32,769 bases of DNA from Mediterranea sp. (in: CFB group bacteria). GTDB lineage: Bacteria > Bacteroidota > Bacteroidia > Bacteroidales > Bacteroidaceae. Made by a program: the position numbers and the translations under genes. The notes below the pieces were generated by a model. It was given only the letters and a program-made list of their open reading frames with translations. It had not been told where the DNA came from and made no database searches. Location of the stretch: contig JAIRKY010000008.1 in NCBI GenBank assembly GCA_031259755.1, positions 1 through 32,769 on the forward strand, written 5' to 3'. Shown here in pieces: positions 4,242 through 30,826 of this stretch (positions are counted from its first letter, which is position 1; each line of letters opens with the position of its first letter).

Positions 4242-6233
4242 ATGAGAAGAATTCAACTACTGTTTATCCTGTTGCTCTTTTGCCGGCTTGGAACAATTGC
4301 GCAAAACACATCATCGCTTGACGGGTTCGAACGTTTGGGAGACCAGCAAATTGACCCTGCCATGCGTATAGGGATGCAGGATAGTTCCAATGTGGAGATT
4401 ATCAGTCTGGTTGCAAAGATGTACATGTGGAAAATCAGTGAAGAGTTGGGCAATATCATTCCGATCCCGGTGGACACGACCTTCCACCTGTTCCAGAATA
4501 CGAATCTGATGGAAGGCATGAGAGGGCGCTACAACCATTTGGGAAACTTGGGATCGCCACGCCTTTCACGTATATTTTTCGATCGTCCGTCAGGTTCTTC
4601 TTCCCTGTTCCTGGATCCGTTCTCCATATTCTTCACACAGCCCTGGGACCACCATTTCGTAAATAGTAATATTCCATATACAAACCTGACATACCATACC
4701 AACTTTGACAAGCAGGATGGAGAAGAGCGCTTCAAGGCTTACTTCTCGGTCAATGCCAACAAGAACCTGGCCTTTGGATTCAATTTCGATTATTTATATG
4801 GAAGAGGATATTATCAGAATCAATCGACCTCATTCATGAAAGGCGGATTGTTCGGTAGTTATACAGGTGACAGATACAAGGCGCATTTCATCTACAACAT
4901 GTTCAACATGAAGATGCAGGAAAACGGCGGTATCACAGACGACCGGTACATAACCGCACCCGAAGAGATGTCCGAAGGAAGGAAGGAGTACAGAACAACT
5001 GAGATCCCGACCAACCTGACCAGAACATGGAACTACAACAAGAATTTCTACGTACACTATACCCACCGTTACAACCTGGGATTCAATAAAGATATACCCG
5101 ATCCGAAAAAGGAAGGCGACACGATAGAATCGTTCATTCCGGTAACCAGCTTTATCCATACCGTTAGAGTAGAGCGTTCAAGGCATAAGTTCATTTCGGA
5201 AGACAAAGAGTATCAGGGGGCGCTCGACACGACCACCTATGTGGGCGTTAAAAATACGTTTGGCATAGCTCTTCTTGAAGGTTTCAACAAATACGCCAAA
5301 GCGGGGCTGACTGCCTATATTTCCCATAAACACAGCCAATATACCTTAATGAACAGCACAGACGGCTCCGGAAATGCGAAGTACAAAGAAAGTGAAGTAT
5401 TTGTTGGCGGCGAACTTTCCAAGAGAGAAGGTAACCTCCTGCATTATCGTGTATTGGGTGAAGTCGGCATGGCAGGACAAGCCGGCGGACAATTCCGTGT
5501 CAATGGCGATATGGACTTGAACTTCCGGTTATTCAATGATACGGTGAATCTTATAGCCCGTTCTTCCATCACGAATACACTCCCCGCTTTCTATATGCGT
5601 CACTACCATTCGACCTATTTCCAGTGGGATAACGAAGGTATGGATAAAGAATTCCGTAGTCGCGTCGAAGGTGAATTGAATATCGGCCGTTGGGGTACAA
5701 ACCTGAAAGCTGGTGTGGAAAACATCAAAAACTATACGTATTTTAACGGTACGGCGAATCCGGCACAGTCGGGGGGTAATATCCAAGTGCTGTCGGCCAC
5801 GCTATCTCAAAACTTCAAGGCAGGCATCCTCCATTGGGACAATGAGGTAACCTGGCAGAAATCGAGCAAGGAAGAGATCCTTCCATTGCCCGATCTTTCC
5901 ATATACAGCAACCTGTATCTGGATACCAAGCTTGCTAAAAAAGTATTAAGCCTTCAACTGGGCGCCGATGTACGTTATTTCACGAAGTACAAAGCTCCGA
6001 CATATACGCCGGCTATTCAACAATTCCACCTGCAAGGGGAGGATCAGATGGATATCGGCGGTTTCCCTATAGTTAATATTTACGCTAACTTTCACTTGAA
6101 ACGTACTCGTTTCTTTGTGATGATGTCTCATGTGAACTCCGGTATGGGCGATCTGAACTATTTTATGGTCCCGCATTATCCGGTCAACCAGAGTTTGTTA
6201 AGATTTGGTCTGTCTTGGAACTTCTTTGATTAA
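4242..6233 (+). CDS. Putative outer-membrane porin (Bacteroidetes putative porin family)
   Basis: The tracked start at 4182 is a TTG inside the gamma gene and hairpin. ATG 4242 gives the signal peptide MRRIQLLFILLLFCRLGTIAQN. Aromatic-rich, beta-barrel-like sequence with terminal FGLSWNFFD. Confidence 0.75.
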   Translation: MRRIQLLFILLLFCRLGTIAQNTSSLDGFERLGDQQIDPAMRIGMQDSSNVEIISLVAKMYMWKISEELGNIIPIPVDTTFHLFQNTNLMEGMRGRYNHLGNLGSPRLSRIFFDRPSGSSSLFLDPFSIFFTQPWDHHFVNSNIPYTNLTYHTNFDKQDGEERFKAYFSVNANKNLAFGFNFDYLYGRGYYQNQSTSFMKGGLFGSYTGDRYKAHFIYNMFNMKMQENGGITDDRYITAPEEMSEGRKEYRTTEIPTNLTRTWNYNKNFYVHYTHRYNLGFNKDIPDPKKEGDTIESFIPVTSFIHTVRVERSRHKFISEDKEYQGALDTTTYVGVKNTFGIALLEGFNKYAKAGLTAYISHKHSQYTLMNSTDGSGNAKYKESEVFVGGELSKREGNLLHYRVLGEVGMAGQAGGQFRVNGDMDLNFRLFNDTVNLIARSSITNTLPAFYMRHYHSTYFQWDNEGMDKEFRSRVEGELNIGRWGTNLKAGVENIKNYTYFNGTANPAQSGGNIQVLSATLSQNFKAGILHWDNEVTWQKSSKEEILPLPDLSIYSNLYLDTKLAKKVLSLQLGADVRYFTKYKAPTYTPAIQQFHLQGEDQMDIGGFPIVNIYANFHLKRTRFFVMMSHVNSGMGDLNYFMVPHYPVNQSLLRFGLSWNFFD

Positions 6234-6285
6234 GTGGTAAGTAATAACTACCAGCCACTTATTATTTACGACTTATTACTTATTT

Positions 6286-7266
6286 ATGAAAACAATAAAA
6301 TGGGGATTTATCGGATGCGGTGATGTAACGAAACAAAAAAGCGGCCCCGCATTTCAAAAGATAGAAAATTCAGAGGTTGTAGCCGTTATGAGCCGCAATC
6401 CGGAAAAGGCCAAGGCTTATGCCACAGAAAGAGGTATCGGGAAATGGTATGATGATGCTCAGGAACTGGTAGATGATCCGGAGATCAATGCCGTATATAT
6501 CGCTACCCCGCCATCCTCTCATGCCACTTACGCTATCATGGCGATGAAAGCCGGAAAAGATGTGTATGTGGAAAAGCCGATGGCTGTAACATACGAAGAA
6601 TGTACCCGTATCAACCGTATAGCCAAGGAGATGGGGCGTAAATGCTTCGTAGCTTACTACCGTAGATATATACCCTATTTCCTGAAAGTAAAAGAACTGA
6701 CGTCCAACGGAACCATCGGTAATGTGATCAACATACAGATACGCTTCGCGCAACCTCCACGCGAGTTGGATTACAACCGCGATAATCTTCCGTGGCGCGT
6801 GCAACCCGATATTGCCGGAGGAGGATATTTCTACGATCTCGCCCCGCACCAGATAGACCTTCTGCAAGATATGTTCGGCTATATACTGGAAGCAAGCGGA
6901 TATAAAAGCAACCGGGGCGGACTTTATGAGGTGGAAGATACATTAAGCGCTTGCTTCCGGTTCGACAACGGTTTGGTTGGTTCGGGTTCCTGGTGTTTCG
7001 TAGCACACGACTCCGCCAAAGAAGACCGCATTGAAATCATCGGCGACAAAGGCATGATCAGCTTCTCCGTATTTACTTACGACCCCATCGCCCTGCACAC
7101 GGAAAGAGGCAGGGAAGAAATCATCGTCGAAAATCCCAAGCATGTACAACAACCCCTTATCCAAGCCGTTGTCGACGACCTTCTGGGGAAATCCACCTGC
7201 ACTTGCGACGGCGAAAGCGCTACTACGACCAACTGGGTGATGGACAGGATACTGGGAAAGATTTAG
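6286..7266 (+). CDS. Gfo/Idh/MocA-family oxidoreductase
   Basis: WGFIGCGDVTKQKSGPAF, YIATPPSSHATYAIMAMKAGKDVYVEKPMAVTYEEC. Confidence 0.92.
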   Translation: MKTIKWGFIGCGDVTKQKSGPAFQKIENSEVVAVMSRNPEKAKAYATERGIGKWYDDAQELVDDPEINAVYIATPPSSHATYAIMAMKAGKDVYVEKPMAVTYEECTRINRIAKEMGRKCFVAYYRRYIPYFLKVKELTSNGTIGNVINIQIRFAQPPRELDYNRDNLPWRVQPDIAGGGYFYDLAPHQIDLLQDMFGYILEASGYKSNRGGLYEVEDTLSACFRFDNGLVGSGSWCFVAHDSAKEDRIEIIGDKGMISFSVFTYDPIALHTERGREEIIVENPKHVQQPLIQAVVDDLLGKSTCTCDGESATTTNWVMDRILGKI

Positions 7267-21066: not shown

Positions 21067-22113
21067 ATGATTATGGCGAAGAAAGACGAACTGAACTTTG
21101 AAGGAGAGAAAACAGTAGCTAATGAAAAGCTAAAGACGTTGCAGAATGCAATGGACAAAATAGAAAAGAGCTTCGGAAAAGGCTCGATCATGAAAATGGG
21201 TAATGAGAGCGTAGAACAAATGGAGGTCATTCACTCAGGTTCGGTAACGTTGGATGTCGCTTTAGGTGTTGGCGGGTATCCGCGTGGAAGGATCATTGAA
21301 ATATATGGCCCCGAATCATCCGGTAAGACGACGCTGGCTATACACGCTATTGCTGAAGCACAGAAGGCTGGTGGTATCGCCGCTTTTATTGACGCGGAAC
21401 ACGCGTTCGACCGCTTCTATGCGGAAAAGCTCGGAGTGGATATTGACAATCTGCTCATTTCTCAACCGGATAATGGTGAACAAGCGTTGGAAATTACGGA
21501 GCAATTGATCCGTTCATCGGCTATTGATATTATTGTCATTGACTCGGTAGCGGCGTTGACCCCCAAGGCTGAGATTGAAGGTGATATGGGCGAGAACAGA
21601 GTGGGTTTGCAGGCGCGCCTTATGTCACAAGCTTTGCGTAAGTTAACGGCAACAGTAAGTAAGACGCGTACAACATGTATCTTCATCAATCAGTTGCGTG
21701 AAAAGATCGGGGTAATGTTTGGTAATCCGGAAACAACCACCGGAGGTAATGCGTTGAAATTCTATGCCTCTGTACGTATTGATATCCGTCCTTCAACTCC
21801 AATTAAAGATGGCGAGGAAGTATTGGGTAAACTGACTAAGGTAAGAGTGGTGAAGAATAAAGTAGCGCCTCCTTTCCGTAGAGCTGAATTTGATATTATG
21901 TTTGGGGAAGGTATTTCCAAATCAGGGGAGATCATCGACCTGGGAACTGAACTGGGTATAATTAAGAAAAGCGGATCATGGTACAGCTACGATGAAACGA
22001 AACTGGGACAAGGCCGTGACGCCGCGAAACAAGTGATACGGGATAATCCGGAACTGGCGGAAGAACTGGAAGCGCATATCATGGAGGCTCTGAAAGAGAA
22101 AAATAAAGGATGA
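21067..22113 (+). CDS. recA: Recombinase RecA
   Basis: [68 protein letters not shown]. Confidence 0.98.
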
Positions 22114-22116
22114 ATT

Positions 22117-22155
22117 CTCAGCGTAGACTTGAGGCCGGCTCAAGTCTACGCTGAG
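22117..22155. terminator. 17-bp perfect stem-loop between convergent recA and the DUF3127 gene
   Basis: CTCAGCGTAGACTTGAG / GCCGG / CTCAAGTCTACGCTGAG. Confidence 0.7.
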
Positions 22156-22189: not shown

Positions 22190-22564
22190 TTAGAAAGGAA
22201 GATCATCCTTTGCGTCACCGGGGATAAATTCCGGAGCAGCAGTAGGAAGTGGAGGAGGAATAGGTGCATCCGCACTAACCGGAACGTCGGCAGTTACACG
22301 CTCTATTTTCCATGCGCGGATACTGTTGAACCATCTATCTTGCCACTGACGGGCATCGATATCGAACGATACATTTAATTCTTCGCCCATCTGGATAGCA
22401 AATTGATCTATTTTATCGGCTCCGAATACCCCGAAACACATTCTTTTCGGATATTGATCATGGTTTTCAATAACAAACTCTTGCGCGATCCACTCGTTAC
22501 CGGTGGATTTTGCTACTCCACTTTTCTGGGGGAGTATCGCGATGATTTTTCCGCTAAATTCCAT
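22190..22564 (-). CDS. DUF3127-family protein with SSB-like acidic C-terminal tip
   Basis: MEFSGKIIAILPQKSGVAKSTGNEWIAQEFVIENHDQYPKRMCFGVFG...WKIERV, Pro-rich linker, ends GDAKDDLPF (checked codon by codon). Confidence 0.8.
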   Translation of the reverse strand: MEFSGKIIAILPQKSGVAKSTGNEWIAQEFVIENHDQYPKRMCFGVFGADKIDQFAIQMGEELNVSFDIDARQWQDRWFNSIRAWKIERVTADVPVSADAPIPPPLPTAAPEFIPGDAKDDLPF

Positions 22565-22674
22565 CTTTTAAAATTATGAGTTTTAAGTAAGCGGCATCTT
22601 GCCGCATTTCCGTCGCGAAGTTACGGTTTTTTTATTGGATTAGACGAATAAACGCCGGAATTTCTTGTGACGTA

Positions 22675-22706
22675 TTGCAACTACATATATTTTTTTTGTA
22701 ACTTTG
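22675..22706 (+). promoter_or_regulatory. Putative dnaN promoter (TTG 22675-22677, 21-bp spacer, TAacTTTG 22699-22706)
   Basis: Consensus match 40 nt upstream of the dnaN ATG. Confidence 0.6.
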
Positions 22707-22745: not shown

Positions 22746-23867
22746 ATGAAATTTATCGTTTCCAGTACCGCTTTATTTAATCATCTACAGGCTGTTAGCC
22801 GAGTGATAAATTCCAAGAACACGCTGCCTATTCTGGATTATTTTTTATTCGACCTTCAGGACGGGACTTTATCTATTACGGCGTCAGACACAGAAACCAC
22901 GATGGTAACTTCGGTTGAAGTGAGCGAAAGTGATGCGAACAGAAAGTTCGCTGTGGTAGCCAGGACATTGTTAGACGCGCTAAAAGAGATCCCAGAACAA
23001 CCAGTCACATTCGATATCAGCGATGTACTGGAGATCACGGTACACTATCAGAACGGTAAATACAGTTTGATGGGACAACACGCGGATGAGTACCCGCAAT
23101 CTACAACACCGGGTGATGACGCCGTACGTGTGGAGATCGGAGCGGATATTTTATTGAGCGGCATTAACCATACTTTCTTCGCTATGGCTGACGATGAGTT
23201 ACGTCCGGTGATGAACGGTATCTATTTTGATATTACTACTGATGATATTACGATGGTGGCATCGGATGGCCATAAATTGGTACGTTATAAAACACTGTCG
23301 GCTTTCGGAAACGAACGCGCGGCATTTATCTTGCCGAAGAAGCCTGCCAATCTGATAAAGAATATCTTGGGTAAGGAACAAGGAAACGTAGTGATTGAGT
23401 TCGATGAACGCAATGCGGTGTTCACTATGGAAAGATATCGCATGGTATGCCGTTTAATCGAAGGCCGCTATCCGAACTATAATTCGGTAATTCCGCAAAA
23501 CAATCCGCATAAAGTAACAGTAGACCGTCAGACGCTTGTAGGAGCGCTACGCCGTGTATCTATTTTTTCTTCACAGGAAAGTAGTTTGATCAAATTACGG
23601 ATGGAAGAGAATGAAATGGTGATCTCGGCGCAAGATATCGACTTCTCTACATCAGCGGAAGAAACACAGGTATGCCAATATGCGGGAAATGCCATGAGCA
23701 TCGGTTTTAAATCGACTTTCCTGATTGATATCCTGAACAATATGTCATCTTCTGAAATCGTAATTGAATTGGCAGACCCGTCACGCGCAGGAGTTATCGT
23801 ACCTGTAGAACAGGAAAAAAACGAAGAGATCTTGATGTTGTTAATGCCGATGATGCTTAACGACTAA
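22746..23867 (+). CDS. dnaN: DNA polymerase III beta subunit (sliding clamp)
   Basis: MKFIVSSTALFNHLQAVSRVINSKNTLPILDYFLFD...C-terminal LMLLMPMMLND. Confidence 0.97.
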   Translation: MKFIVSSTALFNHLQAVSRVINSKNTLPILDYFLFDLQDGTLSITASDTETTMVTSVEVSESDANRKFAVVARTLLDALKEIPEQPVTFDISDVLEITVHYQNGKYSLMGQHADEYPQSTTPGDDAVRVEIGADILLSGINHTFFAMADDELRPVMNGIYFDITTDDITMVASDGHKLVRYKTLSAFGNERAAFILPKKPANLIKNILGKEQGNVVIEFDERNAVFTMERYRMVCRLIEGRYPNYNSVIPQNNPHKVTVDRQTLVGALRRVSIFSSQESSLIKLRMEENEMVISAQDIDFSTSAEETQVCQYAGNAMSIGFKSTFLIDILNNMSSSEIVIELADPSRAGVIVPVEQEKNEEILMLLMPMMLND

Positions 23868-30269: not shown

Positions 30270-30554
30270 TTAATCGTCACAGAAATCAACAATATATAGT
30301 GTATTATTTTCCGTATAATACAGCACTTTAATTTTTTTAACGGAGATAAAGCGTGAATATATCTTTTGTGGCTGATTCAACATAGAAGCTTCAATGTAAC
30401 CGTTATAAGGACGTTTTCTTAATACTTCAATGTCTTTGATCACTTTTTCAATGATCCTTTTTGTCTCTTTCTTCCCGTGGCGGCGGTATAATGCAAGAAT
30501 ATTTTTTAAGTTATTCAATGCATCTTCTCTCCAGTATATCTTTGTTATTTCCAT
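30270..30554 (-). CDS. RelE/ParE-family toxin
   Basis: MEITKIYWREDALNNLKNILALYRRHGKKETKRIIEKVIKDIEVLRKRPYNGY...RFISVKKIKVLYYTENNTLYIVDFCDD. Confidence 0.8.
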   Translation of the reverse strand: MEITKIYWREDALNNLKNILALYRRHGKKETKRIIEKVIKDIEVLRKRPYNGYIEASMLNQPQKIYSRFISVKKIKVLYYTENNTLYIVDFCDD

Positions 30555-30826
30555 GGTTCGATCATTTTAGCAAGTTCTTGTAACGCTTCTTCGTGAGTGA
30601 TATTCTTCGTAGATTGTAAAGAGGTTATGCTATGCACCCTTGCTCTTAAAGGAGTCTGGACCTTTCTTAATTTTGCCTTCTGAGCTTTTTGGATTTTGGC
30701 TTCCCTTTTTAATATGAGCTTATTAATCAGATTGATAAGCACTTCTACCTCTTTATCTTCTACAATTTTGGTTCTGATATTATTTATCAGATGTTCCCTT
30801 CGTTTTTCAAATTCGGTTGTAGGCAT
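30545..30826 (-). CDS. Putative antitoxin partner (no recognised DNA-binding fold)
   Basis: 93-aa charged helical protein; overlaps the toxin gene by 10 nt, upstream on the same strand. Confidence 0.65.
   Translation of the reverse strand: MPTTEFEKRREHLINNIRTKIVEDKEVEVLINLINKLILKREAKIQKAQKAKLRKVQTPLRARVHSITSLQSTKNITHEEALQELAKMIEPWK

Follow-up and report, generated by a model that had tools for sequence, protein, structure and literature searches.

What does a protein of unknown function do when its gene sits between recA and dnaN and its sequence ends like that of an SSB? The question is raised by an open reading frame on the minus strand (22190..22564) of the window, the whole 32,769-nucleotide stretch of Mediterranea DNA that we analyzed. 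The frame is real. It codes for a DUF3127 protein of 124 amino acids plus stop, which reads MEFSGKII...PPPLPTAAPEFIPGDAKDDLPF and has the C-terminal end GDAKDDLPF with the DDLPF tip that the earlier note, which gave no strand, had reported. Based on the reading frame and its matches to Pfam and PHROG, we propose that it encodes a second SSB-like protein. We consider it very likely that DUF3127 proteins are ssDNA-binding hubs of the SSB superfamily that stand beside SSB in most Bacteroidota and have displaced it in one clade; binding to DNA and to partners is inferred, not shown. The computational evidence consists of the reading frame, a fold model, the conservation of the tip, similarity to SSB profiles, the loss of ssb, and a complementary distribution.

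The gene order in the window is recA, DUF3127, dnaN, and then a dnaQ-like gene, coaBC and recN. The neighbors serve as context only: recA (21067..22113, plus strand) is convergent with the DUF3127 gene and dnaN (22746..23867, plus strand) is divergent from it. The gap between recA and DUF3127 contains a perfect 17-bp inverted repeat (22117–22155; −32.7 kcal/mol, z −6.5) without a T run, which is probably a two-way terminator for both convergent genes. DUF3127 is thus its own transcription unit, because it converges with recA across this hairpin and diverges from dnaN. A promoter and terminator scan found nothing, and the promoter model may not suit Bacteroidota. By reading the sequence only, we noted two motifs resembling the Bacteroidota −7 box, TAACTTTG upstream of dnaN (22699–22706, plus strand) and TAACTTCG upstream of DUF3127 (22616–22623, minus strand). 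Elsewhere in the window, two adjoining small ORFs on the minus strand (30270–30826; 94 and 93 aa) look like a RelE/ParE-type toxin and antitoxin, judging from the ORF list alone.

The earlier note had taken these neighbors (recA, dnaN, the dnaQ-like gene and recN) as a sign of function. All of them are present in the window, and DUF3127 is divergent from dnaN-dnaQ-(coaBC)-recN in 75 Bacteroidaceae loci. As functional evidence, however, the argument is weak because the adjacency to recA is unique to the window and absent from all other loci examined, the divergence from dnaN is confined to the Bacteroidaceae, and no gene recurs beside DUF3127 outside this family. We rejected the neighborhood as functional proof outside the Bacteroidaceae, where there is no constant neighbor. 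The conclusion drawn from it still holds. Phages and an ssb-less clade provide better evidence than the neighborhood, and what supports the proposal most strongly comes from outside the window.

Profile searches placed the protein in two families. Residues 2–88 match Pfam DUF3127 (PF11325; 3.2e-33) with 114 bits against a cut-off of 27, enough for membership. The full length (1–124), tail included, matches PHROG 4932, 'single strand DNA binding protein', at 3e-21, again enough for membership. PHROG 4932 and the phage DUF3127 proteins are the same family and match over their full length, including the tip. PHROGs thus already applies this name to the phage branch. It is a phage annotation made from homology, and the host protein is still a Pfam DUF without an NCBIfam name. 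In the literature searched, no host role of DUF3127 was described. PHROG 4932 matches 58/58 members of a wider DUF3127 set, and phrog_44, a different phage SSB family, matches 47 of the 58. The canonical SSB profile (PF00436) did not match the window protein, which does not qualify as a member; among relatives it matched 1/59 at 0.004, and phage members reached 1.8e-4 and 0.0017, below the cut-off.

The AlphaFold2 model of the window protein predicts an OB domain of beta-beta-beta-alpha-beta-beta topology, followed by a disordered tail. The OB-fold domain, supported by the model, Foldseek and conservation, spans residues 1–89 (22298..22564, minus strand), with strands at 2–10, 24–33, 41–47, 62–74, and 77–89 and a helix at 49–55. 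It is followed by a flexible linker rich in Ala and Pro (residues 90–115; 22220..22297, minus strand), recognized by low model confidence and poor conservation, and by the SSB-Ct-like acidic tip GDAKDDLPF (residues 116–124; 22193..22219, minus strand). G5, D50, G60, and W85 are nearly invariant in the OB domain, and aromatics at 25, 38, 74, 78, 79, and 85 and basic residues at 26, 51, 72, and 86 are conserved (the fold-model alignment left out phage rows). These aromatic and basic residues are compatible with stacking on ssDNA, which is an inference. Alignment of DUF3127 with Bacteroidota SSB profiles in hhalign gave E 8e-11 with tails and 4e-4 with the domains alone; reversed or column-shuffled controls gave 0.06–0.57. 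A single-protein sequence search of solved structures returned nothing useful, and the DUF3127 profile reached the D. radiodurans SSB only at 0.009.

Foldseek searches of the PDB with the window model ranked PriB and SSBs at the top (best E 8.5e-5), in agreement with the OB fold for which the earlier note had suggested a check. The top solved structure was PriB, a proteobacterial restart protein derived from SSB and itself an SSB-fold ssDNA binder, which resembles DUF3127 in its small SSB-type OB fold. DUF3127 could thus be a PriB-like restart factor that works with PriA and whose tip only anchors it, without general coating of ssDNA. We regard this as unlikely, though not negligible. SSBs scored in the same range as PriB, and the better model of a DUF3127 relative from an ssb-less genome (domain pLDDT about 97) retrieved only SSBs among the 50 matches listed (best 8.4e-7), with no PriB among them. 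Query-normalized TM-scores were only 0.5–0.6, in part due to the disordered tail. PriB is not known to carry an SSB-type acidic tip or to take the place of SSB. DUF3127 therefore departs from the PriB pattern of an OB domain without a tip, because its OB fold is present but its tip is conserved. A restart factor would also leave unexplained the four genera that live without SSB and the phages in which DUF3127 is the sole SSB-like gene. The predicted SSB-type OB fold, the disordered linker, and the acidic tip ending in PF are instead the features of a canonical SSB.

We assessed tip conservation in a set of DUF3127 proteins drawn from Bacteroidaceae contigs, a phylum-wide sample (115/198 genomes have DUF3127), phages, and one family in depth. 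The C-terminal end is PF in 208/213 distinct complete proteins and [LIVMCA]PF in 206/213, whereas only 2/538 other ORFs from the same loci end in PF. The linker that precedes the tip can scarcely be aligned among DUF3127 proteins, and synonymous sites in the five DDLPF codons show free variation across 78 Bacteroidaceae sequences. Together, the PF ends, the diverged linker, and the synonymous variation indicate that the tip is under selection; shared ancestry alone is not enough to explain it, given how poorly the preceding linker aligns. The tip is therefore conserved across the family and the phylum. Of the three results that the earlier note named as refuting, two were thus checked, the lack of an OB-like fold and a tip without conservation, and neither was observed. 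Along with the OB fold, this supports the earlier proposal of an SSB-like ssDNA-binding or hub protein, with ssDNA and partner binding still inferred. E. coli SSB no longer binds its partners when the last Phe or the tip is deleted, and such deletions are lethal (PMC10164576).

In genomes with DUF3127, a canonical SSB that carries a DDLPF tip of its own is usually found as well. For example, the genome of the window has one (G000:C88:7326-7643) that ends in ...NPADDLPF. In an outlying family, DUF3127 lacks the PF tip in two genomes, G001 (L193) and G006 (L174), and the SSB there keeps DDDLPF. Canonical SSBs bind ssDNA and oligomerize, usually as tetramers, and their tip binds SSB-interacting proteins. 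Canonical SSB (PF00436) and DUF3127 share an OB fold, a disordered linker, and an acidic D-D-[LI]-P-F tip, and both occur in phages and in core genomes. However, the DUF3127 domain is shorter, falls below the Pfam SSB cut-off, and belongs to Pfam DUF3127, and its gene is usually additional to ssb and lies outside the mutY-ssb-gldD locus.

Phages carry DUF3127 as well. The gene lies near an exonuclease, NinG, and a primase-helicase in Cellulophaga phage phi10:1, and in Maribacter phage Panino it follows Erf and exonuclease VIII and precedes a replication initiator and a primase-helicase. Its annotated neighbors in LoVEphage and Dulem virus 40 include no replication gene. A canonical SSB is absent from all four of these complete records, and in 2/4 the DUF3127 gene is the sole weak match to an SSB profile in the whole record. 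Scans of viral contigs yielded no DUF3127 relatives in one case and no usable pattern in another. The sole paper that we found mentioning DUF3127 describes a Pantoea phage SSB that carries this annotation (PMC8004638).

Within the class Bacteroidia we followed one family, f4, in depth. It is probably the Weeksellaceae, although the name is inferred and remains a guess; an f4 protein matches an Elizabethkingia plasmid protein at 71%. DISPLACEMENT of SSB is inferred for f4, where the canonical protein is being lost. The ancestral locus is mutY-ssb-gldD. In Flavobacterium psychrophilum, gldD adjoins mutY and ssb (PMC5682007), and in f4 ssb is kept at this place in G502. By contrast, mutY is directly followed by gldD, with ssb missing, in eight genomes (G477, G470, G520, G500, G493, G491, G490, and G507). 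In a mutY tree, 13/13 ssb-less loci form one group (support 100/99), eight loci with a tip-bearing SSB a second, and four with a decayed tip a third. By this tree, there is a single clean loss of ssb in f4. In four genera (G482, G490, G491, and G493; 99% complete), neither Pfam nor a family-specific profile detected an SSB. When the cut-off was relaxed to E<=1, only weak matches (0.01–0.4) appeared in these genomes, among them their own DUF3127 gene. The absence of ssb from the four genera rests on draft genomes (3 to 50 contigs) and on synteny, and the searches could have overlooked a strongly diverged SSB or an unrelated replacement. Other f4 genera keep a tailed SSB in some cases and an SSB with a decayed tip in others. 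DUF3127 is present in 35/35 f4 genomes tested for it, each time with an acidic LPF tip. In a literature search, we found no paper on an ssb-less Bacteroidota clade.

In genus g4 of the same family, all 30 genomes sampled encode a core 110-aa SSB that ends right after the OB domain (at about 1483–1830 of loci L228–L256, next to hisS in the locus examined, L228), and in 16/30 this is the sole SSB. DUF3127 was found in 29/30 g4 genomes and ends in DDDDDLPF in 29/29. Some g4 genomes have extra low-scoring SSBs of mobile-element type, which may carry tips. The coexistence of a tailless SSB and a tip-bearing DUF3127 in 16 g4 genomes would fit an adaptor without ssDNA binding of its own, which joins SSB or tailless SSB and lends it a recruiting tail. 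This explanation is improbable in our judgment, as the four genera above have no detectable SSB to join, the four phages have DUF3127 without SSB, and the fold and the conserved aromatic and basic positions match an ssDNA binder. For f4, we lean toward, without being confident of, a free-living Bacteroidia family that lost its canonical SSB and relies on DUF3127 as SSB and as hub of interactions in replication and repair, whether by non-orthologous displacement or by takeover by an ancient paralogue. There is a precedent outside the bacteria. Thermoproteales lost the canonical SSB and use another ssDNA-binding protein, ThermoDBP, of unrelated fold (PMC8998557). Unlike DUF3127, ThermoDBP is archaeal, does not have an OB fold, and lacks an SSB-Ct tip.

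The two tips also complement each other across the class. DUF3127 is present in 275/296 genomes of Bacteroidia and, in the reverse test, 18 of the 20 listed DUF3127-negative genomes have a tip-bearing SSB. The remaining two are fragmented assemblies (400 and 460 contigs), and with their exception no genome checked lacks both tips. This mutual compensation bears on the last alternative, namely, that DUF3127 is an RNA-binding or translation-related OB-fold protein whose tip resembles the SSB-Ct by coincidence. OB folds are common among RNA-binding proteins and some DUF3127 members give weak matches to IF-3 profiles. Yet a coincidental tip would hardly be conserved in 208/213 proteins and compensate for that of SSB, and the phage recombination context and the top structural matches, which are SSBs, also speak against this reading, which we consider very remote.

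We therefore return to DUF3127 as a compact protein within the SSB/PriB superfamily of bacterial OB folds. In the mechanism that we propose, the N-terminal OB domain would bind ssDNA, as inferred from its fold, its conserved aromatic and basic residues, and the phage context. The flexible linker would present the acidic D-D-[LIV]-P-F tip, which may dock in those pockets of genome-maintenance proteins that receive the canonical SSB tip. RecO, PriA, RecG, RecQ, and primase are candidate partners, also by inference. In most Bacteroidota, including the genome of the window, DUF3127 would work beside a canonical tip-bearing SSB. In f4, the ancestral ssb would have been deleted and DUF3127 would have become the supplier of the tip, and in at least four f4 genera it appears to be the sole SSB-like protein left. 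In bacteria, SSB and its tip are regarded as both essential and universal. One clade seems to have given up the original SSB, and this ssb-less clade offers a natural experiment on the purpose of SSB. Furthermore, DUF3127, which occurs in nearly all Bacteroidia and is catalogued under 'unknown function', appears to be a second SSB that shares this tip, so that a core gene of a dominant gut phylum would receive a corrected annotation. Phages of Bacteroidota hosts would gain an SSB that may plug into the host machinery via the shared tip.

Duplicated DUF3127 genes were also noted. Marseilla massiliensis (L104) has two in tandem (6001–6399 and 6453–6872), the first with an extra Ser after DDLPF that is expected to spoil docking of the tip. 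Second paralogues of about 90–100 aa occur at L286 and L351, with further unlisted copies in G479 and G460. The two that we read (L286 and L351) have neither linker nor tip and mirror the tailless SSBs.
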